64,000 nt of DNA from Antedon bifida (Eukaryota; Echinodermata; Crinoidea; Comatulida; Antedonidae): the NCBI GenBank assembly GCA_963402885.1, contig OY727095.1, positions 6,763,001-6,827,000 on the forward strand. The letters run 5' to 3'. Below the pieces are notes generated by a model. It worked only from the letters and a program-made list of their open reading frames with translations, did not search any database and had not been told where the DNA came from. Positions 1-53,800 of this stretch are shown in pieces. Positions within the stretch are counted from its first letter, which is position 1, and each line of letters opens with the position of its first letter. The translations under genes and the position numbers were made by a program.

Positions 1-434
1 AGTTGAGGGCTCTGTAGTTGATGGCTCTGTAGTTGAGGGCTCTGTTGTTGATGGCTCTGTAGTTGAGGGCTCTGTTGTTGATAGTTCCGTAGTTGAGGGC
101 TCTGTAGTCGATGGTTCAGTAGTAGATGGTTCAGTAGTTGAGGGCTTTGTTGTTGATGGTTCAGTAGTAGAAGGTTCAGTAGTTGAGGGTTCAGTAGTTG
201 AGGGTTCTGTAGTAGATCGCTCAGTAGTAGATGGCTCAGTTGTTAAGGATTCTGTTGTCGGAGGCCTACATATACATTCAGTAGTTGACGGCTCTGTCAT
301 TGATGGTTCATGAGGTACAATTTGTTTAGTTACTGACACAACTATCAACAAAACTAAAACCAAATGATTGGTGTTAATGTTTTAAATTTAACACTGCTGA
401 TGTACAAAAACTCTAATTCACTTATTTTATCCAT
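1..434 (-). CDS. 5' end of a paralogous giant TTEPS-repeat mucin gene (partial)
   Basis: Seen: two minus-strand exons match the start of the complete mucin gene at 17895-59952. A 13-nt coding piece at 422-434 (ATG plus four codons' worth, ending in phase 1) is followed by a 68-bp GT-AG intron (354-421) and then an exon from 353 open to the left edge. The spliced N-terminus starts MDKIILLIVVSV, a plausible signal peptide, and continues into repeats of the TTEPS type through an ECIC cysteine dyad. Three more residue classes differ from the right copy (a TKQIVPHEPSM insert after the signal region). Known: serine/threonine/proline repeats behind a signal peptide are typical of secreted or membrane mucins. 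Inference: the gene lies head-to-tail with the right copy, and most of it is outside the window. The start is chosen because the ATG, donor and phase are conserved in both copies. Confidence 0.75.
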
Positions 435-858: not shown

Positions 859-881
859 CAGTCGGAGAGCCGCGTTGGGAA
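859..881 (+). repeat. Left terminal inverted repeat of the 9.2-kb transposon
   Basis: Begins CAGTCGGAGAGCCGCGTTGG. The first 20 bases match the reverse complement of the right end except one G/A change, and AA at positions 22-23 also match. Confidence 0.85.
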
Positions 882-1203
882 ATATGACCGTTATCGTGAA
901 ATTTTCGACTTTGCATGACGTCATCAATTTTAGACGCCCTCTCTCGTCACAGAACCGTCAATGGTTCGCGCGAAAACATTTGCATATAGTGTACGTCATT
1001 TAATTGCTGTTAAATAAACATTAGAGGGCAAGAGACATACCATATATGGTGATATCGATTCCTTATATATCTAAGATGTACCAGGTAACCACCTTTTCAT
1101 GAATAATGCATTAGATTAGTTGTCAGGGAAAGTTTATTGAAATCTTCATGTGCGTCCACCGAAGCCAACATTTTTTGGATGGGTGTTTGTTTACAAAGTT
1201 TCC

Positions 1204-1224
1204 ATTAGTGGGATTTGCATCCCA
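1204..1224. repeat. Left subterminal repeat with internal dyad
   Basis: A 21-bp motif, ATTAGTGGG followed by ATTTGCATCCCA, containing the dyad TGGGA...TCCCA. It recurs at 9670-9690 with one mismatch. It lies 345 bp inside the left end. The shared segment continues weakly with gcttgaaaccttat downstream in both places. Confidence 0.6.
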
Positions 1225-1262
1225 GACAGTAATTTTGTTTAAAAACGGTATATATGGATAGA

Positions 1263-1887
1263 GTAAGTATTAATGGTCTGTTTTATGTTGAAATTGGCTT
1301 GAAACCTTATTCAAGCTTCCTTTACCGAACATTTGAAAAAAGGTCCTCATGTCACATGTTGTATGCATCTGCAGCGGCGTTGACAGTGTACCGCACGCAT
1401 GTGTCAACGACTGTTGAGTGTTAAACTTAGTGTTAGTGGGACCGGTGCATGATATATCAATCAAAATTACATACAATATCGAAACATTTACTTAATTGTT
1501 ATAATATGATATAATAATTATACTTACATTTTAACCTACTAGGCCTAATTGTAATACTATTGGCAACAAGCTCACCCAGCCAGGGCCTCTAGATAGAATA
1601 ACATAACAGGCCTGCTGGCAAGGCCTAGTTATGCAGTAGTCACAATATTAATCATGATGCCTATATTTTTAGTTCAGATGTCTTATATTTAATGTAGCCT
1701 AATGTATAGCCTTGTAGGACTAAATATTCTGCTCTGGAATTCTCTCTCAACTGTTCTATATAAATAAAACAGGATCAAAGATGTCTTTTTTTTAGTCATA
1801 AAATGTAGTTCATTTTGCCTATAGTTTTATATTTTTTGGGCAATTTGATAGAAATTTATTTATTTTGGTTTCTGTTGTTAATTACAG
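1263..1887 (+). other. Putative 5' UTR intron of the transposase gene
   Basis: A consensus donor GTAAGT (1263-1268) precedes a polypyrimidine-type acceptor, ttctgttgttaattacag, ending at 1887. Splicing would join a short non-coding leader to the ORF exon without touching the coding region. A second possible acceptor is at about 1948. Transcript evidence is lacking. Confidence 0.35.
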
Positions 1888-1986
1888 GCATACATTCATA
1901 GCTTTCATCTACTACTACTGTTACTGCAAGTGGTTATTTGTTCCTCAGTTTTAGGTAGGTATGCAGTAATTGGGAATCAGAATAGC

Positions 1987-4900
1987 ATGGCTCCACCTAA
2001 GCAATGTCAAATTATACATCCATTCAAAGAAAGTGGACCATGTAAGTTGTGTGGTAAATCTGATAGTAAGGAAAAATATTGGCATATTAAGGCAAAGCAA
2101 CCACAACATGAGGTTGCAGTTAAACATATAACAATGTATTGTAAAGATATTAGTGAGCTTGACTGTATATGTTGGAACTGTGTTCGAAAATGGAACTCAG
2201 ATGAGCCACCTCCATTAAAAAAGCCTAAGCTTAATGCTTGTTTGAAACAGTGTATTTTACCTAATTGTAATTCCAAAGATACAAGTATACATAGTACACA
2301 AAAAGGGGACGAATCTTCTGTTAGGAATTGTTTTGGAATAGATTTTGAAGAGGGAACAATAGTTACAATGTCTGATGGTAATTTTAATTTTTGCAAAATC
2401 CATTACAATGAATATCATAGATTTTTAAATCCGCTTGTTAATTGTGATGCATGCAGTCGAATTTGTGACCACAGATATCGTAGTAATATTAAGGATACCT
2501 CTGCCCTAGAAGAATTTTTTCAGTACAAATCTCTTTTAACAGCAGCATTTGACTTTCAGAAAACAATTCTCTGTTTGAAATGCTATCTTGCATTTGAAAA
2601 GTTCTGTAAAGCAGATGAATTTTCCAACAGAGAGTATGGAAAGAAAGAATACTTAAAGAGGTTACTATCTGGTGTTATAGAGGAGGCAGACAGTAGAGAT
2701 TGTATTAACAACTCTTTACAAAAAACTGTCGTCTTTTTAGGGGATGAACTTCTTTCCGATAAAGCTATTCTATTTGACACTGTTTATCGTTATTATTTAC
2801 AGGTTTACAGTCAATTTGATGTAACTAATTGTGTTAACCATAATAATGATCATTTGATTTCAGAGAAAAATATCAAGGCCTTACTCAAAAGGCGGATAAA
2901 TGCATTAATTGGCCAATGTATTATCACTTTTACTGGAAGTGATACTGGTAGAGAGCGCCTAGGAATGATTTATAGACGAAAGAACTCAAACATTGAACTT
3001 TGTCTTTTGGTTTCTTTGTTTGAATGTAGGAAAAGTATTAAGTCTCTAGAGGAACAATTAGAAAAGAGCAATAACAAATGTGAAGCTTTAGAAGAAAAGC
3101 TCAGAAAGAAGTCCTTAGATGCAATTGGTAACTTAAATGATTCTACTGTTGATAACTTGCGTGACAAATTATGGTTGATGGGAAAGTCTTTTACTAGTTG
3201 TTCAATAACCATTGACAAATTTAAGCCATTAGCATTAATTGAGATGTTTGATCCATTTATTTGGAATTTCCTTACTAGAATGACCCTAACTGATGTTGAA
3301 AAGACAGTGGTTTGTAAAGCAGGTATTAACTTCAACTGGGCAACACATTGTATGAAAACACATGAAAATGCTCAGATGAACCACACTAGACTGTTGAAAA
3401 GGATGAATATCATGTGTTGCCTTATGTTTTTAATGAATAATGAGGCTTACAAGCCATATCATCTTCTGATTTCTGATATCATTGACAGGTTCTCTCATTC
3501 TTCCACAGAATGTTTAACCGAATTGTCCCAATTTGGGATATGTACATCAAAGTCTACTACGCTCAGGTATCAAGTTGCTATTGCTGAAGCAGAGATAAGG
3601 TCTAAGGAGAAAATTGTTACAGAATCATTTCCAATTATTTCAATAGATAATGTAAATAAGCAAGCCAAGTATGCTGCTGTACGTGCTAATGATAAAGCCA
3701 GAGGTTTTAATGGAACATCTGTACAGGCTGTTGAGCCTCTTCCTTTCACAGCAAAGTTAACCAATGAAACAGTTTTGATTTCAGAATCTGAGAATGAAAT
3801 ACCCACAACCAGTACAGCTAAAGCGTCAAAAACCTACAGTAGGCATAGGAAACTTGAACCTGCATTAGTAGCAGACTATCATAGTTCAAATTACCAGCCA
3901 GGTGAGGTTCTCCCACAGCTTCCTAATAAATTGCCTCTTAACTTAGATGATTTTAAACCATCTATTACAGAAACTCAGGCACTTGAAAGGACAGGGGATT
4001 TCCTGTTTAGGTATGTTTTATCAAAGGTTATCAACAATAAATCACAGCCTGATATTTCTTTGCCAGGTATTAAGGGGACATCATATGCATCAAGTTCATC
4101 TAAATTAACAGAAATCTCAAAGTTTCACTTTGTCTCTGTCTCTGCTTTACCTGCAGACAATAAGGATACCATTTTTAATATTCTGTGGCAATTGTATGAT
4201 AGGTTTGGTGTTGGTGACTCGTGTAAGTACCTTGTTGTTGCTGGCGATTTCAAGACTTGGGACATTGTATGGAACCTAAAGTTAATATATGGTGATGAAC
4301 TGGCTTGGGTTCTCCCATACATTGGTGATTGGCATCTCCTCAAAAACTATCAGGCACCTCTGATGAAAGTTTACTTAGATGCTGGACTAAAAACTTTGTT
4401 AGAAAGGTGTGGCTATCAGGGAGCAAAGTTTGCATCGGTAGCTAATGCTACTGGTTTTGATGCAACCCACCAATTTCTGTTGCAAGTGTGGGAATGTTTT
4501 TATAGGTTTGAAGTTGCTCAATATCTGTTGACTTGTTCTGAAACCACCAGGCATACAATCGAAAGTTTTGTAACTAGTGTTACTTTTGATAATTTGCAGG
4601 ACAATGCTACTGATTGTATATCTAACCATGATATTCATTTACTTAATTCCCATACAGCTATAGCAGAATTTCAGGAACAGTTTAAAAAATACACTGACAG
4701 ACATTGTGCCAATAATGCTACTTATAGATTTTGGCACAATTTTATCCACAGGGACATGTTCCATTACATTTCTTTATATCTGTCACTACGTGGTCGTGAT
4801 TTTGACTTAAGAAATGCTTCAGTTTTGCAAATGGCTCCAATGTTCCATGCACTAGACCGGCAGAATTATTTGCGAATAATACCTTTTCACATTGCAGATT

Positions 4901-7287
4901 TAAAGAGATTTCCAGCAGAGGTAGTAGACTTTTTTGGTAAAGGTGCTTTTGTTGCCAGTATAACAGGTACCAATTGGTCATGTGTTGGAGTTGACGAAGC
5001 ACATGAGATGATCATTAACAAAAATATCAAGATGGCCATGACAAACTCTGATGAGGATTATTTATCAAAGCTTTTACACTATTTGCCTCATAGAACAAAA
5101 GCTATTGCTAATCTCAATTCTATTACAAACAGAAAGTCAACTTCTTCTAATGAACCGTTTTTATCATCATCAGTGATAAAATACCAAGAACAGAATGTCC
5201 AACTAATGCTATCTGAAATTAACAAAACATCTTCTCTAGTTTCAGGTAACAAAACAAACATTCAGCATTTATTTACAAACGAGTCAGCATCCTTGAAGGC
5301 AAACACAGATTTAACTTCCTTTTATGAGGTAGGAAAAGAAAGTTTTATTTCTTTTGTTAAATTTGTTGTTCTGTCACTGCCATCTTCAAAACGACCTGTC
5401 AGGAGAAGACATAACATCTGTACTTTTACTCCTCCAAAACAAACAGTGTCGAGGCAAAAAACAAAGCTAAAAGACACAGAACTTCAACTGAAAATAATGA
5501 AACTAAGGTTTGCCAATCTTTGTGCTTCAAATAATGAAGACAATGTACATAATCAGTGTGTTCCTCTCCCAAAGGCACTTTGCACAGAGGATGGTCTGCC
5601 GTTTAAATCTAACAAAGCCATGTCTTCTGCTGTATATCAGACTAAATATCCAGACTCATTTACTGATGTTTATCCTCAGAAAGATGACCAAACTGCATAC
5701 ATCGCAGAAGGAATGATTATCATCCATGAACACCGACCATTGCCAAATCATGATAAATTTATTGATTTCTACAACCATCTTTACAGACAATGGGTGCTCA
5801 AACCATTTAGAGATTATGGAGCTGCTGAAGTTCATATCATCTTTGATCATCCAGGAAGGCATGGGCTAAGCCCAAAAGATCTAGAAAGATCAAGAAGGGA
5901 TGAAAAACACTGTAATAACAAATCAGTTTCAATTTCAGTTGATGTGAATTCCAAGATTCCAAAGCAGTGGGCATTATTTTTAGGTGATAGGACCAATAAA
6001 CGCAAGTTAGTTAACACATTATCTTCATTTTTCCTTTCTAAAGCAAAGCAGGATTTGAAGATTGGACAATTACTTATCACAGCAGGTGGGTTTGATGATG
6101 ATGCTACCGACAAAGCATTTATATCGCGTTTAGGTTCCACAGAAGAGGCTCCAAATTACAGATCAAATCATGAGGAAGGAGATTCCCGTGTTTGGTTCCA
6201 TTGTCGTCAAACTTCTTGTGCTAATGTAATCATTTTTAGTCCTGACAGAGACATTATTCACATTGGGTTGCCTGTTATGAAACATATGCATGGGAAGAAC
6301 GTCAGCATCCAACTACGGGCTAAAAGAGGTGACAATTTGTTTATGAATATTAATTCATTTTTATCACACCTACAGGTTGATGCTCAGTTGGATAAACTGA
6401 ACAATTACAAAGACGAAATCCCTAATCTTTTACAGATGCTGTTTGTGTGCAGTGGTTGTGACTTTGTTTCCTTTTTCAGGTCTCATTCCAAAAAGACATT
6501 CATGAACGCCTTTTTTGAAAATTGTAAATTTATTACAGGTAGCTCTCTTACAGGTAAACTTAACCAGATAGCAACATGTGACAGGGATGAAGGTTATTTA
6601 GCTTTCTTAAGGCTGGTTGCTTGTGTGTATCACAAGAAACATCACAATGCATTTTATGGATGTACAGTAGAGCAGGTTTTTAATGAAGTCAAAGTTGAAG
6701 GATTAAAATCAGGTCTTTCTGATGTTAAAATTCATTCAGTGTTCATGAAGAGGTTACGTGATGCTATAGATTGTAGGGTCGGTCTGGAAGAGCTTATGAT
6801 TCCTTCAGATGATGCTTTAAAATTTCACTGGTACCGTTCATGTTATGTGGTTCAGATGTGGTCTCAAGCAAGTAATGGTTTTGTTGAGCTTCTCAACATG
6901 AATGATTATGGATGGAGTACAGTTGATAATAAAGTAAACATTGTTTGGGATAGTGAGGATAATTTGAGAAAAGTCAGAGAAGAAGCAAAATTTCTGAAAA
7001 AGGGTTGTTCTTGTAAGTCAGGATGTAAAAGGAAACAATGTTCATGTTTGAAAGCAGGTAGAAATTGTGGTGTAAGTTGCAAATGTGTAGGCTGTCTAAA
7101 TGTTCATGGTGCTAGTATCCAGGTAGATGAATGCTCTAAAGAGGTAGCAGATGTAGTAATTCAAAATAAGGATGAAAACAGTGATGTCGATTATGACATA
7201 GATGATGAATCTGATATAGAAATAGAGGAACTGGAAGAAATGTTCAGGATTGTAACAGAACGTTTTAGTCATGGTGACAATGATTGA
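1987..7287 (+). CDS. Transposase-like protein with GDW core, PIN/FEN-like acidic block and C-terminal CXC domain (1766 aa)
   Basis: Seen: an uninterrupted 1766-codon frame. Start chosen: the first ATG, MAPPKQC; the frame is open upstream but has no earlier ATG. N-terminal Cys pairs (about residues 19-65 and 150-170) look zinc-binding. A short coiled coil lies at about 343-385. The central block has VVAGDFKTWD (D754) and GDWHLLKNY (D781). A basic stretch, RPVRRRH, lies at about 1138-1145. Next come HEEGDSRVWFHC (D1399), SPDRD (D1420, D1422) and SGCDFVSFF (D1492). The C-terminus has a CXC cluster from C1674 to about 1704 and an acidic tail. Known: CXC domains bind DNA; the EE-D, SPDxD, GCD acidic series resembles PIN/FEN nucleases; GDWHLLKNY resembles DUF6589-type proteins (from memory). 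Inference: the element's transposase. No stop or frameshift is seen, so it may be active or recently so. Confidence 0.8.
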   Translation: MAPPKQCQIIHPFKESGPCKLCGKSDSKEKYWHIKAKQPQHEVAVKHITMYCKDISELDCICWNCVRKWNSDEPPPLKKPKLNACLKQCILPNCNSKDTSIHSTQKGDESSVRNCFGIDFEEGTIVTMSDGNFNFCKIHYNEYHRFLNPLVNCDACSRICDHRYRSNIKDTSALEEFFQYKSLLTAAFDFQKTILCLKCYLAFEKFCKADEFSNREYGKKEYLKRLLSGVIEEADSRDCINNSLQKTVVFLGDELLSDKAILFDTVYRYYLQVYSQFDVTNCVNHNNDHLISEKNIKALLKRRINALIGQCIITFTGSDTGRERLGMIYRRKNSNIELCLLVSLFECRKSIKSLEEQLEKSNNKCEALEEKLRKKSLDAIGNLNDSTVDNLRDKLWLMGKSFTSCSITIDKFKPLALIEMFDPFIWNFLTRMTLTDVEKTVVCKAGINFNWATHCMKTHENAQMNHTRLLKRMNIMCCLMFLMNNEAYKPYHLLISDIIDRFSHSSTECLTELSQFGICTSKSTTLRYQVAIAEAEIRSKEKIVTESFPIISIDNVNKQAKYAAVRANDKARGFNGTSVQAVEPLPFTAKLTNETVLISESENEIPTTSTAKASKTYSRHRKLEPALVADYHSSNYQPGEVLPQLPNKLPLNLDDFKPSITETQALERTGDFLFRYVLSKVINNKSQPDISLPGIKGTSYASSSSKLTEISKFHFVSVSALPADNKDTIFNILWQLYDRFGVGDSCKYLVVAGDFKTWDIVWNLKLIYGDELAWVLPYIGDWHLLKNYQAPLMKVYLDAGLKTLLERCGYQGAKFASVANATGFDATHQFLLQVWECFYRFEVAQYLLTCSETTRHTIESFVTSVTFDNLQDNATDCISNHDIHLLNSHTAIAEFQEQFKKYTDRHCANNATYRFWHNFIHRDMFHYISLYLSLRGRDFDLRNASVLQMAPMFHALDRQNYLRIIPFHIADLKRFPAEVVDFFGKGAFVASITGTNWSCVGVDEAHEMIINKNIKMAMTNSDEDYLSKLLHYLPHRTKAIANLNSITNRKSTSSNEPFLSSSVIKYQEQNVQLMLSEINKTSSLVSGNKTNIQHLFTNESASLKANTDLTSFYEVGKESFISFVKFVVLSLPSSKRPVRRRHNICTFTPPKQTVSRQKTKLKDTELQLKIMKLRFANLCASNNEDNVHNQCVPLPKALCTEDGLPFKSNKAMSSAVYQTKYPDSFTDVYPQKDDQTAYIAEGMIIIHEHRPLPNHDKFIDFYNHLYRQWVLKPFRDYGAAEVHIIFDHPGRHGLSPKDLERSRRDEKHCNNKSVSISVDVNSKIPKQWALFLGDRTNKRKLVNTLSSFFLSKAKQDLKIGQLLITAGGFDDDATDKAFISRLGSTEEAPNYRSNHEEGDSRVWFHCRQTSCANVIIFSPDRDIIHIGLPVMKHMHGKNVSIQLRAKRGDNLFMNINSFLSHLQVDAQLDKLNNYKDEIPNLLQMLFVCSGCDFVSFFRSHSKKTFMNAFFENCKFITGSSLTGKLNQIATCDRDEGYLAFLRLVACVYHKKHHNAFYGCTVEQVFNEVKVEGLKSGLSDVKIHSVFMKRLRDAIDCRVGLEELMIPSDDALKFHWYRSCYVVQMWSQASNGFVELLNMNDYGWSTVDNKVNIVWDSEDNLRKVREEAKFLKKGCSCKSGCKRKQCSCLKAGRNCGVSCKCVGCLNVHGASIQVDECSKEVADVVIQNKDENSDVDYDIDDESDIEIEELEEMFRIVTERFSHGDND

Positions 7288-7481
7288 AAATTGTTGTTCT
7301 TTTTCGTTTTCTTTGTATGTGATGGTTAGTTGTTTCTTGCACAGAAATTTTCTAGTCTTTCTTACATTTCCACAGATTGGAGCTTGTCTTTCTGGAGAGG
7401 AATACACATTTTTCTCGCAATTAATATATGTTGTAAATAATTGCTATTTATATCGGTTTACGGTGGTCTTTCAGTTTATGC

Positions 7482-7487
7482 AATAAA
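7482..7487 (+). promoter_or_regulatory. Polyadenylation signal AATAAA after the transposase ORF
   Basis: AATAAA lies 195 bp past the stop codon on the coding strand, in a T-rich 3' UTR-like stretch. Confidence 0.5.
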
Positions 7488-7499
7488 ACAGTTATTGTA

Positions 7500-9480
7500 A
7501 TTTGTATCTGCCGTTTCATTACTGCACTTCCTTTACACAAAACCCCTATATAATACAGGTATTCAGATTGAATCATTTCTTGAAGAGATAGGTTTTGTCA
7601 CAGTGACAATGATTTAAAATATTTAAATTACTAGTATTCGCTCAATTTTCATTATTTAGTTTTGCTCCTTCGTTGTCACCCAAAACCATCCTGCCCATGA
7701 CCGACCACAATGGTATCTTGCTAACATTCCTTCCCTAATATCATTGCTGTCAATTTTCCAAACCTTACTTTTTACATTCCACTTAAATTTCCATATTATG
7801 TCAAAATACTGTAAACATTTATATTTCTCAGCATACTATTTTATTTTAGGCAATAATACTGTAATTACAAAAATGTACAGTATATGTCTACAATATTGAA
7901 TTTGATATTGTTTTGTCATGAAGTGCATATGATCTGTAAATCTAGGTTAAAGGAAAGAGTATTATTTGCTCATTGTAATTAATACATACATACACAGTAT
8001 TTTGTGTTATAAGGTGTTTGTGTTTAATATTGATGCAGGTATTTTAATTGTTTTCTGAGGAGATATGTTTTGTTTTTGTTGACAATGATTTCAACTCTTT
8101 ACTTAGTTCTTTACATCTCAGTTATTCGGTTTACAGTAACAATTAAATATCAAATTCTTATTTTTCAAGGTATATATTTATAATTATATCAAAGGAAATC
8201 ATCTTGATGAAGGTTAAATAGATTGTATTATGATTTTTGCACTACACAGTACTTTGTGCAACATTTTTATATAGAAAATCATATTATGCAACTGGCATTT
8301 TTTATATAAGTAGTTGGTTAATTGTTTTTTTTTATGTTGGTTAATTCAGGTACATTTTGCTATTAAAAACAAATTATATAGTTATTTATGGAATTTTCTA
8401 GAGATATTATTTAATACTAAATAGTATTAATATTTATATTGACTCAGTGTTTTCACCTAACAAAGTACAAAAACAACTATTAATCCAGATGCATGGTGCT
8501 ATAACAAAAACAAGTTTAACATAAAGTATTTAATATTGATATTGGTTGAATGCAATGTATACAGTACTTGTATATTAAAAATAATTATTATTTCCGATGC
8601 CTGCTATAAGAACCAAGTTACAGTATTTTATATGTGTATTCGTCACTGAACTCAAAGGTATAAAAGGTGCTATATCAAAAAGAGTAATTTTAGTGTAGGA
8701 TAGTATTGGTTGAATGTACTCATTTAATACTTAGTAAAAATTGTTTTCCATTAACCATTTATAATTAATTTGTAAACATATTTACTTGCATTAAATGGTG
8801 GCATTTTTTATTAAGTAGTTTTTTTATGAAGTTGGTTAATTCAAGTACAAGAAGGTGTTATTAAAAACAAATTATTGTAGTTATAGTAGTTGTTTAATAG
8901 TTATTTATGGAATTTTCTAGAGATACTATTATTAGTAGGCCTAGTTGTTATAGTGTGTTAAAATAATATTTATATGGAAATGCAACTGGCTTTTTCACAT
9001 TCAATGAAAAGTGCAAAATGTGCTATAAAAAACTGGTAAGTTATGCTAGAGTAACAGTATTATTTATTATGTGTGTGTATTTGTTATTGTAATTTAACTG
9101 AAAGGTATATAAGGTGCAGTAAGCCTGGCATATCATTCATAAGGTGCATTATAAAAAAAAAGAGACTAATAAGTTTGTTAAATGTGCTAATCTAATTATA
9201 CTTAATTAAAATGTTTTCAAGTAATCATTTATAGTGATGATTAAGGTTACTGTAGTTATTTCAGATGGCCAAGGTGCTACAAAAAGAAATTTTGTATGTT
9301 ACAGAATTTAAAATTGTTTGAATTTGAACTTTAATGATTGAGTGCAATGATTATTAAGTGCAAAAATATCAATAAAAATCAGAAAATGGCTCAGTATTTG
9401 TGTGTCTATTGTTGTGAATTGCAAATTGTATCTGATTCATTTGGCTACCCTACTAATACTCAGAGACAAAATATATAAAT
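7500..9480. repeat. Non-coding 3' part of the transposon with degenerate internal repeats
   Basis: AT-rich and without a credible ORF. The motif aaggtgctataaaaa and variants recur at about 8490, 8665, 8853, 9018, 9110, 9150 and 9268. A longer segment ending gttatttatggaattttct occurs at about 8383-8400 and 8906-8923. This suggests an old tandem array. The repeats stay inside the transposon ends. Confidence 0.5.
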
Positions 9481-9669
9481 ATAATAATAAACCAACTTTT
9501 TTTATATAGGCCTAGGCCTACGTTTTCATCGACAACCGGATTGAACCGATTTAACAGGGAGACGGTTCGGTTCGGGACGATTCGTACCAGGTTCGTAAAA
9601 ACGTAAACAAAGATTCAAAATGGCGATTTTTCGATCGAAACAGAACAGAAATGTAGTAGGTTTGGTTTG

Positions 9670-9690
9670 ATTAGTGGGAGTTGCATCCCA
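9670..9690. repeat. Right subterminal repeat with internal dyad
   Basis: ATTAGTGGG followed by AGTTGCATCCCA, 20 of 21 bases identical to 1204-1224, lying 387 bp inside the right end. Together they form a roughly symmetric pair. Confidence 0.6.
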
Positions 9691-10054
9691 AGAAAGCTTA
9701 AAATTAGATATTTATTTTTATTGATAGTTTATTAGTTTATCTTGGAAAGATTTTAAATTCGCTTTGAAACCTTATCTAGAAAATATGAAATTTAATGATT
9801 TTTTACCATCATTTTAAAAAAAATATAAGTAAAAAAGTTTATACATAAAATAATGATATTTCTCGAAACAAAAAAAATGTGGAATTTAAATGACAGTTTT
9901 TATCATTATTTACGCTTGTAGTTCAACTATTGAAATACGTTTATTGATTTCATCTAATATCAAAATTATACCTTTTTTGAAGTGTACTAAAATGGCAAAA
10001 ATTCCAACATTTTCCACGAAGCGCGCCCTCACAATGAATGAAATCAGTGATGCG

Positions 10055-10077
10055 TTACCAACGCGGCTTTCCGACTG
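10055..10077 (-). repeat. Right terminal inverted repeat of the 9.2-kb transposon
   Basis: Reads ccaacgcggctttccgactg at its outer end, the reverse complement of the left terminus with one mismatch in 20. Confidence 0.85.
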
Positions 10078-10081
10078 ATCT
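10078..10081. repeat. Target-site duplication ATCT, right
   Basis: ATCT directly follows the right inverted repeat and pairs with 855-858. Confidence 0.7.
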
Positions 10082-38800: not shown

Positions 38801-41800
38801 ACATACCTAATGTTTCTGCATCATTGATATTTGATTCTTCAGTAGCTTTGGTACTTTCACCAATAGCTAGGTTACCCGTTGCTAAAACATCAAACAAACA
38901 CTCTTTGTTGCCGGCACATAATGCTTCCCCATCTGATAACAAGTTTGTTCCTTTATTTTGTTCTATCAGTTCATCAAGGAACTTAGGCCTAAAAGCATTA
39001 TTGTTAAATTCGGCATAACTTTCATTCTCGGAATAGACAAACATTGCCTCTTCTTCTGTTAATCTCCCTGTAGAAAAAAAGATCGATTATACTGTGTTAA
39101 CTATGTTAAAATAACAAATAATTTTATGTGGTGAAAGATGGAATGTTCTGTTGAAAATATAACCTTTCATCTTTCACCTCATGAAATTATTTTAACTATT
39201 ACACTCATACACTATAATACTCCAAACTACACAAATAATATGAAGACCTAATACTAGAAAGTAACTACAAAACCAATGAAAAGCCTACTTGTTCTATTGC
39301 AAACTTCATATGCGATATTATTTCCTTAACATTATCTAAATAACAATAAAAAAAGATACTAAATGAAAAAACTTGGCTATCACCGCCCTCAATAAGCCAT
39401 TAATGACTTACAGGTATTAGCAAAATCAAATATTTCAGACTCTGATGACGTGTTTGTATCCAAACATAGACTACTTGTTCTATTGCATACTTCATCCGTA
39501 TTGTTTCCATTCCATACACCTAAATGACATTTTCAGACTTAGTTTATAAACACATATATCTATAGTATAGATTAATTAACGCAATCGAATACTTTATGTT
39601 ACTGGAAAGTTATATTATAGATAGAAATCAGATAGAATAACAAAAAAAACCATATTTTTTCTTATAGATAGTAGGCAGATTGCAATAACTACCAAAAAGG
39701 CCCGTATAGGTTTCCATAGTAGGCAGATACAATAACTTACCAAATAAGCCCATAGTTTTTCCCCATACAGTAGGCAGATACAATAACTTACCAAATAAGC
39801 CCATAGTTTTTCCCCATACAGTAGGCAGATACAATAACTTACCAAATAAGCCCATAGTTTTTCCCCATACAGTAGGCAGATACAATAACTTACCAAATAA
39901 GCCCATAGTTTTTCCCATGTACTTCTCATCATACTCTACCAATACATCCAGCATTTTCTCAATAATAGAGATTCCAAAGGCTATCCCAGTGCTCCATGAA
40001 GCGTAAACTCGTTCACTACTCATTGTCAAGTTGTTTTCCTCTTTTATAAACAAACTAAATGCTGGATCCGCATCCACTGCATAAGTTCCTTTTTTAAAAA
40101 AACACAAATTTTATTACAATAGAATACTTTCATTTAAACTCTGTCTACACTATCAAACTAGTCTAGACAAAAAAGTGGTAGGGATATGCCAAAATATTGT
40201 AGTGATACGACATCACCATGTACATAATGGCTACATCACATTTGTTGTCATATAGTGTTTGATAGTGTAGACTTTAATATGAAATACAAATGTACAATCA
40301 AAATGTATCATTTGGGAAACAAATATTTAAGGAATTGATCATTTATTAGAAGCTCTTGTGAAATATTTTATTAGGCTACCGGTTCTCAACAACAGTTGGA
40401 TTTATCTTCAGATCAGCCTCCTATAGAGCCTAGTGTCACAGGTGTGGTCCAAGAAGCATAAGGGGTTTTAAAGAAATATTATGATGTATTGTCCCCCTGA
40501 AAAAATTATTTTGGTTGAATATGCCATTTTAATGTCACATAATAATTATCTAAACTGGCTGCCAGCTAATGGATTTTCGGTTGCATTTAACCATTTATTT
40601 TGTCATTTTATTAGTGAAAACATTTCTTTTTTAGCGGAAGTAATTAATTTGGTTAAAACTACAAAATAACCTATTCAAATTTTCAATTAAATTCAATTAA
40701 TTCAATTAATCTTCTTTTTTCATGTTTTTGAGGACAATACATCTTTAACATTTTATATATATTTTTAAGTATTAGCTTTTCACGGACCATATAAAATGTA
40801 CTCAATGGCCGTCTTTGACCCACAGGTCAACAGTAAGACATTTTTTTTATTTAATTAAGTACGATAGTAGGCCTAATTGCAGAATACTTTACCATTTCTT
40901 AATGTGTCGACGGTGATCTCAATGGTTTGATTAATCAGGATGCTAATTTCAGTGCCATTGTTGCTCAGTGTGAATTGAACCTATAGAATTTGTCATGAAG
41001 GAATACATTTTAGTACATTTGTCACATTTAATCTCGTCAATGGTTAAAAATCTAATGGAATAGTCCAAGCAGGTTGACATTGATATGGTAATCCCGTGTC
41101 CAGAAATGTCTAGCAAAGAGAGCAGTGATGAACCGACATAGAAAAGCAAACGTTTATTATTTATACACTGGGTTGGTATCCGGCGAGGCTTATTTTTCCT
41201 TTCTCATTTCTTTATTTTTTCCATTACAACAAATGATCTTGATGAAAAACAACTTTTGGTGAGTTGAGGTGTTTAAATAAGACGTGAGAAAATAAAGTAT
41301 ATTAATATACTGTTTAGTATTAATCATTTCTAAATAATATCTTACATCGGTTTCACTTTCTCCTGTATGCTTTCCAACGAAAGAACTAAATATTGTAGCT
41401 TCTGTAGATGGATCAGAGACTGGAGGCGTCATTCGGCATTGCAACTGGAACATTCCATTTTCAACATCGGAGCAAAGAAACTCACCGTTACCATTAAACG
41501 TGTATTGATATCCATCTTGTGTACTTATATGTGGATCACCAAACATCCAAGCTAGAAACAAGAGTACAGTAGGAATGTTACTAAGCTCATATAGACAACG
41601 CTACACATTCGGTATTTCAATAAAGAATTGCATGTTAACATGCTCAGTGGAAAACCGTATGTATCGGGTGCTGTATAGACCTTTCTTCGGAGCGTCATGT
41701 GGTATAATTATTATTATTCATTATTCACCAATGGCAAATTGGAGCAAATAAAAATCGACGGTTTACCCCCATACTAACAAATACATTGGATACAGTACGA

Positions 41801-44800
41801 AATAACAATGGCAATACATAGCAATGAAATTAACATAATGAGAAAGTAATACCTGTAAATACATTTAATACAAAATTAAAACAATGGATGTGTCGGACTT
41901 GAAGAGCGTAGAGGGTCTAATCCGAATTTATTAAAAGCTTGAGGTTATAATATGTCACAAAATTGAATATAATGAAACTTACAAATTCGAGGAGGTCTGT
42001 AAAACCAGCAGTTGGCTGGTGGTCTTCGCTCTATATACATTCTGCAAAACCTTGGATTTTTAGCCCAAAAGCAGCAATAGTACCGAGGCATGATGTCCGA
42101 GGCTAAACAAGTAGGAGAAAATAAGAATGCGTACAGAATTTATTTCCATACATTGCAAAGTGTGCTTGATCACATTTCTCCATAAAACCACCAGGGAATA
42201 AAATCTTTTATACATGTTATCATTAAATATACTTACTTATATGTTTAGTATACCGTTCACTATTAAATGTAAAGCCAAATCCAGAGTAAGCATAGCGAAT
42301 TTCAAAGCTGCTGAAACCAAGTCCTCTATAACCTCGAATCAATGAAAAGCTGTACCACCAGTAACAACACTCAGTTCCAGAAAATGCAAAGTTAAAAGTA
42401 GCGCTTTGGAAACAGATTGCGAAATATCGACCTGCAAACAATTGTTAACAAATTATTTTATAGTTTCTGACCAACTTTTTAAAAAGTATCTCTAATGGTT
42501 TTTGTAAACAAACACAACTTGATTGAATGTCATATTATACTGTACAAACACGATCACCGTAAAAAATGTCAATTTATTACATATTGTAGAGTGATTCTGA
42601 TGTTATTCAATGTGTAATTCTGCTTTATATTTCGTTTATATAATATTCTTTTGGTTAATCTTAAGAAATGCACATTCTGGTATAGATGCAGAGTAGATAT
42701 ATTCTTCGTTTTTTACGATAATTTAGTTTAGAACAATACAATACTAGGTATGTGCGCTTTCACCGTGGATAATGACACCTCATTAGCACATTATTACATG
42801 ATTTCTCGTGGTCAACTTATCATGAGAGATCATGATAATTAAGTCACACTATTTTGTAAAAAGGTGCATTATGATTTGAAACCTATGTATATAATATTTA
42901 ATCTTACCAAAATTAAGGTAATATACAACAAGTGAAAATAAACTTGATGAGATTCCATCTTCAGCTAAAATTGCATTAATACTCTCACTTCTCCCCGGAC
43001 CAAAGGCGTTGAGAGAAATGCGAGGAACATAGTTGTATCTGTTGTCTCTCAGTGCTTGTAATAGTCCACAAGGGCATGTTCCGAGACCAATAGTGCTGAA
43101 AAAGGTCCTTTTATCCTCGTTATACCAATCTAAACAACGCTTATTCCCATTGATTGTATAGGCTGTATTTGATTCAAAACGCACCGCATATTGCCCTTTT
43201 TTGTCAGTATTACCAACAAATTGATCTGGTCGATATTGGTTCAACTGGAAATTTTGACGTCCATATCCCCTAATATTGTAACCAATCAGAGAATTTGGTG
43301 TACTCTCTAAAGACGGATCCCACTTCATGCTTTGCTCTTCAAACAAGAATATCCCGAAGGTGTAGAGTCCATCAGTAATAAGAATTGCTTGAAACGTGTT
43401 TCGCTGTTAAAATAAAAAGGTGTAAGATATAAGTTGTCTAGATATAAGGAGTTTTGACTAACTTTGTATTTTGCAGATATACAGACCCGTACTAGTATTG
43501 AAGCAGTGGCGTAACGCAGAAGCCTGAGGCCTCTGGCTTTGGAACACCAAGTGGCCCTCCAACGCTTTAAGCCTTTTTCGACATATTTTAATGCCTGTTT
43601 TCCTCTGGACACTGCCCAGGGCCCCTATAAGATCCGGGGCCCCTGGGTTTAGCCAGTAGGCGTTCATAGCCGTTACGCCACTGTATTGAAGTTCATTGTA
43701 CAGTATGTCTGATAAAATAAAAGAGTTTGATTAACTGCAGTATGTAGGCCATACTCAATAGTGTTTTGGTGATTGATTGCACCGTGAAACTGTGGCAAGG
43801 AAGGAAGCCCATTCCAATGTCTCTGCATGCGGACAATAAATTAAACTTTACAGTTTTTGGTAAAAAGAGAGCTTATAATCTAATGTATAATGTAAATTTA
43901 GTTACTTCAATATAAAAGATAGATATACGTGATTTGCCAATTTGTTTCAAATTCTAAGGATGCGAGATGATAAGGATGATTAAGTATAATTGATAGCTCT
44001 TGATTTGAGATGTTTCAACTAGTACTATAAATTACAAAAAATTATTTCAAAATACTTACATATTCTAAATTTGGATCAGACGGAAACTGGGAAATTTGAT
44101 ACCATGTAACCTTTAAAGCCCATGAAGGTGCGAAGTCTGAAGGAATGGTTGAGGTGTAGATTTTGTTCAATGTCACAAGTGCATCAGCAAAAAAGGAATT
44201 TCCTTCATCTGTGTACTCCTATTGGTGATAGAAGAAATACTTTTTTATCTAACAGATATTGAAAAAACGTATAAAACATAGAAACATCACGACATAGCGG
44301 TTAAAATATAGATTTAAATTACTAATTTATGTAAATAAAGTTAATACATTCTGTTTGGAAAGTGCCTCCCTTCAGAATTGTAATTGTAAATTGTGATGAC
44401 ATCTTGGCTACTTGGTATATAATTGAATAGTACTATAGAGTGAGGAGAGAGAGAAAGCGTGTACAGTTGTTGCTATTGTATGCATCCATACAATATGAGG
44501 TATCAAAATGACCGGAATTGTACTGGGATGGTTGTAATGTAAAATATAAAGATACCTGATAAAAGACATCGTTAATATCATCACTAATCAAGTATCCTTT
44601 ACTCCAGAAAGGTGAAATGATGTTAAGTTGATCAGAACTAACAAAACCATTTAAGGGAGGTCTGGGATAAGTTACCACAACAGCATCGTTATCTTGCAAC
44701 ACAAAGTTTCCATTTTGAGTGAACTATTAAGAAAAGAAAGGCAATATTTGTTTTATTTACTGAGTATTTATTGCAGGTAAGGAACATACAACCATCCAAT

Positions 44801-47800: not shown

Positions 47801-50800
47801 CCATACAAATCGTAATTCCACAACGCAATTCATTTTCCAAACAATCTACAAAATGCAAAAAAACATTAAAAAAATACAATGTCATACATTGAAATTTAGC
47901 AGCGGGTATACATATTATTGTGCAACACAATGAAATTAATACTTAAATATATCCGGAGTATAACATAAAAAGGTAGCAGAAAGAAATGTCTCCATGGTTA
48001 TCCCAATGCATCGTCTGAACTGAACTAAGAATTACAAAATGTAAACTTGACTGAACTTTAATATAAAAACATCTATTATCATTTTAAATTATTTAAAGCA
48101 GTCGTTTTGGGTTAGGTGTTAAGGTTATTTTTTTAAATGTTATTTAGTATGATTATGAGTTTTTTTTTTTCAATGTTCTTGTAATTTTAAGGGTACACTA
48201 TCATCAAGCTCATTTCGATTTTATTTCGAGAGATATTTTGTATTTATGTGTTTCCTTTTCATCGACCTGTTTTTATAATTCTGATTTTTCTTTATATTTT
48301 GATGATAACGATGATGAATAAATGATATTTGATATGATTTGGTCATCCTTGGTTCTGCCTGCGTAGTGAACTATTGAACAGACAACAGTTTTACAGTGCA
48401 TAAAGGATATATCAAGAGGAGATTTCTCGAATGATCGAAATTAAAACGGTACTGGGTTTGGTCTATTAGCGTTCTTGTTAGTCATCCATTCATGATAAAA
48501 TTATTGTAGTATGTGATATAAAGAATGTAAATTAGTGGAAAAGGCACAATACTTTATGATGTACTTTATATAATTTACATAACATTGAATAGGTTCACTA
48601 TCGCTACAGAATAGAATGTGTGACTCGCCGGGTACAACAAAAAAATAGTCAACCAGAAGCCCATTTGCTGGTAACCGTTTATATTTTTTATAGTGAATTC
48701 ATAATTTTTTTTTTACAGAATTACAGCAGCAAAGTCTTATGTTAATAATCTTCATTATGCTTTTGGGGAACATAACTTTAATAAAGATTCTGTATATCTT
48801 GCAAATCCATGCATACAAGTAAGGAATATCATGGAGCTGGAAACACATTAGGACAACTTACAGAATAACTAAATATTTAAAATCCGATGTTTAGCAAAAA
48901 CTTACAACAACCAGCATCTTCAGTCTCGTCTTCACCGTCAGGACAATCATGCATTCCATCACAAAACCAAACGCCCGGCACGCAAATGTTTGTTGTTTTG
49001 GGACATAGACGATATCCACTCATGCATATGGAAACTAGAATTTAAATAAGAGTAAGAGAATTTGTTTAGTGCCAATAACTGTATTAACTGTAAATATATC
49101 TAAATTGACTGAATTGAAAATTAAAAAGGGCCAATAATCATAGCAATTTCAAGACTTACCTGCCATAGTTGACAGCTCTGTAGTTGATAATTCTGTCGTT
49201 AATGTCTTAGTAGTCAAGAGCACTGTTGTCGAAGGCTCAGTAGTCAAACGCTCTGTTGTGGATGGCACGGTAGTTAAAGGCTTTGTAGTAGATGGTTCAG
49301 TAGTCGAGAATTCAGTAGTAGAGGGCCTAGTAGTCAAAGGCTCTGTAGTTGAGGACATAGTTGTTGATCCTTCAGTAGTTGATGGTTCTGTAGTTGGTGG
49401 TTCAATAGTCGACGGTTCAGTAGTTAAGGGTTCAGTAGTTGAGGACTCAGTAGACGAGGACTCAGTAGTTGAAGGCTCTGTCGTCAAACGCTCTGTAGTG
49501 GATGGCTCAGTAGTTAAATGCTTTGTAGTAGATAGTTCAGTAGTCGAGAATTCAGTAGTAGAGGGCCCAGTAGTCAAAGGCTCTGTAGTTGAGTGCATAG
49601 TTGTTGATCCTTCAGTAGTTGAGGACTCAGTAGTTAAGGACTCAGTAGTTAATGGTTCAGTAGTCGAGGTCTTAGTAGTTGATGGTTCAGTAGTTGATGG
49701 TTCAGTAGTTGATGATTTAGTAGTCGAGGACTCAGTAGTTGATGGTTCTGTAGTCCACGACTCAGTAGTAGATGGTTCTGTTGTTGATGGCTCAGTAGAT
49801 GATGGTTCAGTAGTCGAGGACTCAGTAGTCGATGGTTCAGTAGTTGATGGTTCAGTCGTTGAGGACTCAGTAGTTAAGGACTCAGTAGTTGATGGTTCAG
49901 TGGTTGATGGTTCAGTAGTTGAGGAGTCAGTAGTTGAGGAGTCAGTAGTTGAGGATTGAGTAGTTGAAGGCTGTGTCGTTGATGGTTCTGTAGTCGACGA
50001 CTCAGTAGTAGATGGTTCTGTTGTTGATGGTTCAGTAGTTGATGGTTCAGTAGTTGATGGTTCAGTAGTCGAGGACTCAGTAGTTAATGATTCAGTAGTT
50101 GATGATTCAGTAGTCGAGGACTCAGTAGTTGATGGTTCTGTAGTCGACGACTCAGTAGTAGATGGTTCTGTTGTTGATGGTTCAGTAGTCGAGGACTCAG
50201 TAGTTGATGGTTCAGTAGTTGATGATTCAGTAGTTGATGATTCAGTAGTCGAGGACTCAGTAGTTGATGGTTCAGTAGTCGAGGACTCAGTAGTTGATGG
50301 TTCAGTAGTTGATGGTTCAGTAGTTGAGGAGTCAGTAGTTGAGGACTGAGTAGTTGAAGGCTGTGTCGTTGATGGTTCTGTAGTCGACGACTCAGTAGTA
50401 GATGGTTCTGTTGTTGATGGCTCAGTAGTTGATGGTTCAGTAGTTGAGGACTCAGTAGTTGATGGTTCAGCAGTCGAGGACTCAGTAGTTGATGGTTCAA
50501 TAGTTGAGGAGTCAGTAGTTAAGGAGTCAGTAGTTGATGGTTCAGTAGTTGAAGAGTCAGTAGTTGAGGAGTCAGTAGTTGATGGTTCAGTAGTTGATGG
50601 TTCAGTAGTCGATGACTCAGTAGTCGAGGACTCAGTAGTTGATGGTTCGGTAGTCGAGGACTCAGTAGTTGATGGTTCAGTAGTTGATGGTTCAGTAGTT
50701 GAGGAGTCAGTAGTTGAGGACTGAGTAGTTGAAGGCTGTGTCGTTGATGGTTCTGTAGTCGACGACTCAGTAGTAGATGGTTCTGTTGTTGATGGCTCAG

Positions 50801-53800
50801 TAGTTGATGGTTCAGTAGTTGAGGACTCAGTAGTTGATGGTTCAGTAGTCGAGGACTCAGTAGTTGATGGTTCAGTAGTTGAAAAGTCAGTAGTTGAGGA
50901 GTCAGTAGTTGATGGTTCAGTAGTTGAAGAGTCAGTAGTTGAGGAGTCAGTAGTTGATGGTTCAGTAGTTGATGGTTCAGTAGTCGATGACTCAGTAGTC
51001 GAGGACTCAGTAGTCGAGGACTCAGTAGTCGAGGACTCAGTAGTTGATGATTCAGTATTTGATGATTCAGTAGTTGATGATTCAGTAGTCGAGGACTCAG
51101 TAGTTGATGGTTCAGTAGTCGAGAACTCAGTAGTTGATGGTTCAGTAGTTGATGTTTCAGTAGCTGAGGCGTCAGTAGTTGAGGACTGAGTAGTTGAGGA
51201 GTCAGTAGTTGAGGACTGAGTAGTTGAAGGCTGTGTCGTTGATAGTTCTGTAGTCGACGACTCAGTAGTAGATGGTTCTGTTGTTGATGGCTCAGTGGTT
51301 GATGGTTCAGTAGTTGATGGTTCAGTCGTTGAGGACTCAGTAGTTGAGGACTCAGTAGTTGATGGTTCAGTAGTCGAGGACTCAGTAGTCGAGGACTCAG
51401 TAGTAGATGGTCCTGTTGTTGATGGCTCAGTAGTTGATGATTCAGTAGTTGATGATTCAGTAGTCGAGGACTCAGTAGTTGATGGTTCAGTAGTTGATGT
51501 TTCAGTAGTTGAGGCGTCAGTAGTTGAGGAATGAGTAGTTGAGGAGTCAGTAGTTGAGGACTGAGTAGTTGAATGCTGTGTCGTTGATGGTTCTGTAGTC
51601 GACGACTCAGTAGTAGATGGTTCTGTTGTTGATGGCTCAGTAGTTGATGGTTCAGTAGTTGAGGACTCAGTAGTTGATGGTTCAGTTGTTGAAGAATCAG
51701 TAGTTGATGGTTCAGTAGTCGAGGACTCAGTAGTTGATGGTTCAGTAGTTGATGGTTCAGTAGTTGAAGAGTCAGTAGTTGATGGTTCAGTAGTTGATGG
51801 TTCAGTAGTCGAGGACTCAGTAGTTGATGATTCAGTAGTTGATGATTCAGTAGTTAATGATTCAGTAGTTGATGATTCAGTAGTCGAGGACTCAGTAGTT
51901 GATGGTTCTGTAGTCGACGACTCAATAGTAGATGGTTCTGTTGTTGATGGCTCAGTAGTTGATGGTTCAGTAGTTGAGGACTCAGTAGTCGATGGTTCAG
52001 TAGTTGATAGTTCAGTAGTTGAGGACTCAGTAGTCGAGGACTCAGTAGTTAATGATTCAGTAGTTGATGATTCAGTAGTCGAGGACTCAGTAGTTGATGG
52101 TTCAGTAGTTGATGGTTCAGTCGTTGAGGACTCAGTAGTTGAGGACTCAGTAGTTGATGGTTCAGTAGTTGATGGTTCAGTAGTTGATGGTTCAGTAGTT
52201 GAGGAGTCAGTAGTCGAGGACTCAGTAGTTGATGGTTCAGTAGTCGAGGACTCAGTAGTTGATAGTTCAGTAGTTGATGTTTCAGTAGTTGAGGCGTCAG
52301 TAGTTGAGGACTGAGTAGTTGAGGAGTCAGTAGTTGAGGACTGAGTAGTTGAAGGCTGTGTCGTTGATGGTTCTGTAGTCGACGACTCAGTAGTAGATGG
52401 TTCTGTTGTTGATGGCTCAGTAGTTGATGGTTCAGTAGTTGAGGACTCAGTAGTCGATGGTTCAGTAGTTGATAGTTCAGTAGTTGAGGACTCAGTAGTT
52501 GAGGACTCAGTAGTTGATGGTTCAGTAGTTGATGGTTCAGTAGTTGATGGCTCAGTAGTCGAGGATTCAGTAGTTGATGATTCAGTAGTTGATGAGTCAG
52601 TAGTTGATGAGTCAGTAGTTGATGAGTCAGTAGTTGATGGTTCAGTAGTCGAGGATTCAGTAGTTGATGGTTCAGTAGTTGAAGAGTCAGTAGTTGATGA
52701 TTCAGTAGTCGAGGACTCAGTAGTCGATGGTTCTGTAGTCGACGACTCAGTAGTAGATGGTTCTGTTGTTGATGGCTCAGTAGTTGATGGTTCAGTAGTT
52801 GAGGACTCAGTAGTCGATAGTTCAGTAGTTGATAGTTCAGTAGTTGAGGGCTCTGTAGTTGATAGCTCAGTAGTTGAGGGCTCAGTGGTTGCTGGCTCAG
52901 TAGTTGAGGGCTCTGTTGTTGATGGCTCAGTAGTTGAGGGCTCGGTTGTTGATGGTTCAATAGTAGATGGTTCAGTAGTAGATGGCTCTGTGGTTGATGG
53001 TTCAGTAGTAGATGGCTCTGTGGTTGATGGCTCAGTAGTAGATGGCTCTGTAGTTGAGGTCTCTGTTGTTGATGGTTCAGTAGTTAAGGGCTCTGTCGTA
53101 GATGGTTCAGTAGTAGATGGTTCAGTAGTAGATGGCTCAGTAGTTGATGGCTCAGTAGTTGAGGGCTCTGTAGTTGATGGCTCAGTAGTTGAGGGCTCTG
53201 TTGTTGATGGTTCAGTAGTTGAGGGCTCTGTTGTTGATGGTTCTGTTGTTGATGGCTCCGTAGTTGATGGTTCAGTAGTTGAGGACTCAGTAGTCGATGG
53301 TTCAGTAGTTGATAGTTCAGTAGTTGAGAACTCAGTAGTTGATGGATCAGTAGTTGATGGTTCAGTAGTTGATGGTTCAGTAGTTGATGGCTCAGTAGTC
53401 GAGGACTCAGTAGCTGATGGTTCAGTAGTTGAAGAGTCAGTAGTTGATGCTTCAGTAGTTGATGGTTCAGTAGTCGAGGACTCAGTAGTTGATGGTTCAG
53501 TAGTTGAAGAGTCAGTAGTTGAAGAGTCAGTAGTTGAGGAGTCAGTAGTTGATGGTTCAGTAGGTGATGGTTCAGTAGTCGAGGACTCAGTAGTCGAGGA
53601 CTCAGTAGTAGATGGTTCTGTTGTTAATGGCTCAGTAGTTGATGATTCAGTAGTTAATGATTCAGTAGTCGAGGACTCAGTAGTTGATGGTTCAGTAGTC
53701 GAGGACTCAGTAGTTGATGGTTCAGTAGTTGATGTTTCAGTAGTTGAGGCGTCAGTAGTTGAGGACTGAGTAGTTGAGGAGTCAGTAGTTGAGGACTGAG

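Follow-up and report, generated by a model that had tools for sequence, protein, structure and literature searches.

The 64,000-nucleotide stretch of the Antedon bifida genome analysed here (GCA_963402885.1, contig OY727095.1, positions 6,763,001 to 6,827,000 of the forward strand; C8:6763001-6827000 in our contig numbering, hereafter the window) contains a transposon of 9,219 bp at window positions 859-10077. With a probability that we put at roughly 0.86, it is a complete, autonomous and very recently active member of the Academ superfamily, a DDE cut-and-paste transposon belonging to the AcademX (nuclease-bearing) lineage. A preliminary description, made from the sequence of the window, had read it as an apparently intact DNA transposon; that reading holds and is strengthened, in that the element has been active recently and has a large family of shorter derivatives. 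The genome assembly screened comprises 315.6 Mb in 27 contigs. The limits of the element are the following.

855-858: left target-site duplication (TSD), ATCT
859-878, plus strand: left terminal inverted repeat (TIR), CAGTCGGAGAGCCGCGTTGG, a boundary backed by two other full-length copies and by 247 genome-wide matches
10058-10077, minus strand: right TIR, CAGTCGGAAAGCCGCGTTGG
10078-10081: right TSD, ATCT

The two TIR arms agree at 19 of 20 positions, with a single G/A mismatch at position 9, and both they and the ATCT duplication lie where they had first been placed. Two other full-length copies were found on two other chromosomes, C9 (L033 351-9569) and C12 (L034 299-9517). Over 9,219 bp no difference separates these two, and each shares 99.98% identity with the window copy, from which they differ at 5520 (synonymous, codon 1178) and 9719. 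Their alignment stops at the same two boundaries as the window copy, except that one further T beyond the C12 copy also matches. The preliminary description had named differently placed ends in other genomic copies as one observation that would refute it, and these two copies show none. The three copies lie on three contigs with differing flanks, and each has its own TSD, namely ATCT in the window, CTA on C9 and TATT on C12. The first 504 bp of the element have exactly three matches of 100%, after which identity steps down to 82-83% (40 of 120 candidates scored). The element is real, its ends are exact, and it has been mobile in the past.

Allowing 3 mismatches at most, the 20-bp TIR matches the genome at 247 places (123 forward and 124 reverse in 315.6 Mb), while a reversed-pattern control gave no forward and one reverse match. 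Manual pairing of the first 100 TIR places, none of them mismatched, gave 47 pairs and left 6 ends single. The distance spanned was 2582-2726 bp in 40 of these pairs, 3135-7328 bp in five and 9219 bp in two, the third full-length copy falling outside the first 100 places. The loci allowed 14 of the 45 shorter pairs to be read; 12 of these were assembled, and two longer ones (3135 and 4941 bp) were dropped for a gap. The assembled derivatives are 99.3-100% alike (gapped columns excluded), and share with the autonomous element a left end of 505 bp (81.2-82.6% identity) and a right end of 535 bp (93.8-94.6%); no match to the element was found for the interior of these 12 copies. One of them has a single frame of at least 120 codons (139 codons), and the other 11 have none. 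A 500-bp piece of the derivative interior gave 116 candidate places in the genome, and all 40 that were scored are 98-100% identical. From the 247 ends we estimate that the shorter derivatives number roughly 120. Because the intact relatives L035 and L036 start with different ends, CAGTGGGAAAGCCACTTCGC, no intact source of transposase with matching ends was found other than the three full-length copies, and the derivatives were presumably mobilised by the protein of 1766 amino acids which these copies encode.

Duplications were read for 27 insertions. Besides the three full-length copies, these comprised 24 of the 45 shorter pairs, taken in list order (every listed pair of C1 and C7 plus the initial one of C8). 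An exact TSD is present in all 27, its length being 4 bp in 17, 3 bp in eight and 5 bp in two. When the right flanks were shuffled, about 3 of 27 matched, with a maximum of 11 in 2000 shuffles. Within 3-11 bp a single length fits each site (2 bp would fit as well at two TATA sites and two TTT sites), and the TSD lengths are therefore real alternatives, although individual 3-bp cases such as TTT could be due to chance. The 4-bp duplication originally described is the commonest length but not the sole one. The C9 and C12 insertions each hit a copy of the same dispersed host repeat, and their positions within it overlap, the duplications CTA and TATT falling inside AAACTATTG. The two repeat copies (L033 188-369 and L034 134-315, in empty-site coordinates) are 78% identical over 197 aligned columns, and the repeat has 653 candidate places at first look, with matches at all 40 that were scored. 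A target hot spot was considered, but this coincidence, noticed post hoc, does no more than hint at a target preference.

The protein-coding features of the element, all on the plus strand, are given below.

1987-7287: uninterrupted open reading frame (ORF) of 1766 amino acids, DDE transposase-nuclease-CXC protein, with ATG at 1987 and a stop codon ending at 7287
2164-2583: N-terminal Cys/His clusters, probable zinc fingers with a putative role in DNA binding; across 14 aligned proteins, conservation of the Cys/His columns is complete or reaches at least 90%
3307-5214: predicted DDE transposase region, with RNase H-like order of strands and helices and a long helical insertion (AlphaFold pTM 0.76)
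3646-3648, 4246-4248 and 4996-4998: candidate catalytic acids Asp, Asp and Glu, invariant in 14 of 14
4168-5040: stretch equivalent to Pfam DUF6589 of the homologue P0003, by alignment mapping
5611-6903: predicted nuclease of FEN1/EXO1/XPG/XRN fold (AlphaFold pLDDT 88, pTM 0.88; Foldseek and VIA matches)
5707, 5845, 6175, 6181, 6244, 6250 and 6460 (codon starts): seven candidate metal-binding acids, invariant in 14 of 14
6997-7101: C-terminal CXC (tesmin/TSO1-like) domain (Pfam TCR, 20.1 bits against a cut-off of 23.5)

The ORF is free of internal stops, as first described, and extends to 1785 amino acids if counted from an upstream GTG; the chance of 1766 stop-free codons at 35% GC is about 2e-57. 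In the model of the transposase region, the best-aligned chains are the P element, Hermes, RAG1 and ISCth4, and VIA rows 1-11 are all DDE transposases, which, together with the invariant D, D and E, points to a DDE/D transposase; Foldseek alone gave nothing at E<=0.001. Ahead of its last acid the region has a long helical stretch, as in the transposases of the P element, hAT (Hermes) and RAG1, to which its sequence identity is 8-11%. The TSDs of these three systems are 8, 8 and 5 bp, respectively, against 3-5 bp here. DUF6589 of the homologues P0005 and P0006 maps to residues 746-1007 and 747-1048 of the window protein, which itself had no DUF6589 match in the Pfam scan. The correspondence suggests that DUF6589 functions as an RNase H-like transposase core; no paper on DUF6589 was found in the literature searched.

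The product of 5611-6903 is predicted to have the fold of the FEN1/EXO1/XPG (Rad2) and XRN nucleases, and its seven invariant acids follow the FEN1 motif order, a tentative equivalence based on that order and on FEN1 numbering rather than on residue-level superposition. It differs from these enzymes in its low sequence identity (about 10%), in its fusion to a preceding transposase and in its first acid, Glu (E1240) in place of the Asp of FEN1. Alignment of the nuclease with FEN1 by hhalign was not significant (probability 0.3, within the range of 20 shuffles), and a PDB profile search with an alignment including full-length homologues returned no nuclease up to E 10, the CXC protein LIN-54 being matched at 0.0013. 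These sequence-only methods failed to identify the nuclease, whose assignment comes from the predicted structures. The window protein gave three Pfam matches, TCR, FapA and preSET_CXC, all below the cut-offs. TCR, which is just under, was also found among the 14 aligned proteins, 9 of which match it with E values of 5 or less. The CXC-tailed, nuclease-like protein of the preliminary description is thereby recovered, the nuclease as a FEN1/EXO1/XPG fold in the model. No helicase core domain appeared in Pfam scans of the window protein and the aligned proteins, one of which matched Suv3_C_1 (E 0.12).

A protein search of the genome yielded at least 32 matches (26 of 139 candidates scored), comprising the three full-length copies, two full-length relatives of 46% identity (L004/L035 and L005/L036) and others that are partial, broken or more distant. 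The L035 element extends from 1311 to 9543, with TIRs CAGTGGGAAAGCC/CAGTAGGAAAGCC and the TSD ATTA. The L036 protein is 96% identical over 1287 residues to P0002, a protein annotated in the feather star Antedon mediterranea, a likeness that points to a closely related crinoid as host. The right end of the L036 element was not found within the sequence examined. When the entire alignment was used for another protein search, a single distant protein was listed. Broken relatives of 65-74% nucleotide identity, L037 (492 onward) and L038, lie on C8 near 19.74 and 20.0 Mb; L037 retains CAGTCGGAGAGCCGCG as a left end, and C8:20001725-20001744 holds one lone end that matches. A horizontal-transfer origin was considered, since the three copies are near-identical while the next relatives stand at 65-74% in nucleotide sequence. 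The loci L026 (C7:14752460-14754637) and L027 (C10:17000293-17001933) carry open frames of 1148 and 1524 codons that are 20-22% identical to the window protein from residue ~490-505 on and 40% identical to each other; they represent a second lineage of this genome, and a deeper one. The homologues P0009 and P0010 (2362-2390 amino acids) have a precomputed match to PF13472 (GDSL-like lipase), confirmed at 36-168 in P0009, which may reflect a fusion or a gene-model error.

Selection was estimated by the NG86 method as nonsynonymous (dN) and synonymous (dS) divergence. The window copy gave dN 0.31 and dS 2.58 against L037, and 0.18/2.59 and 0.19/1.43 (dN and dS, in that order) against two pieces of L038; L035 against L036 gave dN 0.23 and dS 3.85, and the window copy against L035 gave dN 0.49 with dS beyond the range of the method. 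As dS is near saturation, only the direction of these estimates is safe, and it indicates a constrained protein, nuclease part included.

For the superfamily, we favour AcademX on the basis of architecture and TSD length, the comparison being with descriptions of AcademX and not with reference sequences. Academ nucleases are of the XPG type. The AcademX lineage was reportedly set out by Kojima in 2020. According to PMC10045372, AcademH makes TSDs of 9-10 bp and AcademX of 3-4 bp, a difference related to the presence of a helicase versus a nuclease. The element resembles AcademX, so described, as a nuclease-bearing DNA transposon with 3- and 4-bp TSDs: 25 of the 27 insertions have one or the other, and a FEN/EXO1/XPG fold is predicted. 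It departs from it in also having 5-bp TSDs (2 of 27), and its 9.2 kb are long beside the mean of 5,565 bp given in PMC10294476 for curated Academ elements of bivalves, of which that paper reports 100. Academ is listed as a Repbase superfamily in PMC4455052. AcademH, placed in the same superfamily by PMC10045372, combines a helicase with 9-10 bp TSDs, whereas the present element has a nuclease model and TSDs of 3-5 bp in 27 of 27 insertions; with no helicase core domain in the Pfam scans, AcademH was set aside. KDZ/Zisupton elements were likewise set aside, given the 3-5 bp TSDs in all 27 insertions. Their TSD is 8 bp.

The preliminary description had left the superfamily uncertain, with Academ as the nearest match and Sola2 as the alternative. 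Since the published description of AcademX combines a nuclease with TSDs of 3-4 bp, "uncertain" goes too far, and Academ is the favoured guess of the two. The alternative that survives best, which we nonetheless consider improbable, is a separate, undescribed superfamily that is AcademX-like only in its DDE transposase, fused FEN/XPG nuclease and short TSDs. The dependence on descriptions of Academ, in place of reference sequences, would allow this, as would the occurrence of 5-bp TSDs and the coverage of part of the homologues' core in Pfam only as DUF6589, on which the literature searched held no paper; however, a nuclease together with 3-4 bp TSDs is the description of one lineage, AcademX. 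Membership in Sola2 or another superfamily with 4-bp TSDs (Chapaev or Ginger), i.e., cut-and-paste without a nuclease partner, is very unlikely. A TSD of 4 bp is characteristic of Sola2 and is the commonest class here (17 of 27), but a FEN/XPG-fold nuclease domain is predicted in this element, and 3- and 5-bp TSDs occur within the same family; to our knowledge, Sola2, Chapaev and Ginger lack an XPG-type nuclease and have other termini. An intact ORF under apparent purifying selection might also befit a domesticated host gene, but this, like the notion that the three copies are assembly duplicates, can practically be dismissed in view of three contigs with different flanks and TSDs, 247 matching ends elsewhere and 24 checked derivatives with TSDs.

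The non-coding part of the element includes the following features.

935-941, plus strand: CGCCCTC subterminal heptamer, left, short and weak
10024-10030, plus strand: CGCCCTC subterminal heptamer, right, on the same strand as the left; the heptamer recurs near both ends of the relative L035
1204-1224, plus strand: subterminal motif ATTAGTGGGATTTGCATCCCA (repeat family D19), whose arms TGGGAT/ATCCCA are palindromic; distance from the left end about 350 bp
9670-9690, plus strand: subterminal motif ATTAGTGGGAGTTGCATCCCA, oriented like the left motif; distance from the right end about 402 bp
7288-9400: AT-rich 3' region lacking any long ORF; degenerate direct repeats recur here at a spacing of about 450-520 bp

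The ATTAGTGGGATTTGCATCCCA motif is kept in the non-autonomous copy L039/L040. The relative L035 carries it as AATAGTCGGAGGTGCGTCCCA at a comparable distance from the left end, its motif AATAGTCGGAGSTGCGTCCCA lying about 346 and 402 bp from its ends on the same strand, and in L036 it occurs once in the sequence examined. We read these motifs as candidate sites for protein binding that would distinguish the left end from the right.

Elsewhere in the window, a 10.7-kb array of 15-bp units (49149-59879, minus strand) is open for 3576 codons, with mucin-like repeats and a strong GC skew, and a similar repeat frame occupies the left edge (1-363, minus strand), about 500 bp from the transposon. A frame of 185 codons (42849-43406, minus strand) presumably resembles a NIDO domain, and 3.9 copies of a 51-bp unit with 100% match (39718-39916) lie inside an open frame at 39628-40110 (minus strand).

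In the proposed mechanism, the 1766-residue protein would bind the CAGTCGG ends and the subterminal motifs through its Cys/His clusters and CXC tail. The predicted RNase H-like DDE core would then excise the element and join it to a short staggered cut, and the fused FEN/XPG-type nuclease, by its predicted fold, would most likely trim flapped or hairpinned intermediates of excision or integration. Gap filling would leave the TSDs of 3, 4 or 5 bp that are seen. Their variation in length could come about through variable trimming, or else the spacing between the two DDE active sites may be flexible. We offer, as a tentative and rather doubtful proposal, that the nuclease is an active partner in transposition whose variable trimming spreads TSDs over 3-5 bp, in an AcademX element that is still mobile and has its own dependent derivatives and a same-strand subterminal recognition code, with DUF6589 as the DDE catalytic core. 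Academ elements have been named, but in the literature searched their mechanism has hardly been studied, and no paper on the use of their nuclease was found there. Because the element has exact ends, three near-identical copies, many natural substrates, an unbroken ORF and two core models, it would make the role of a flap-type nuclease in a DDE transposon testable.
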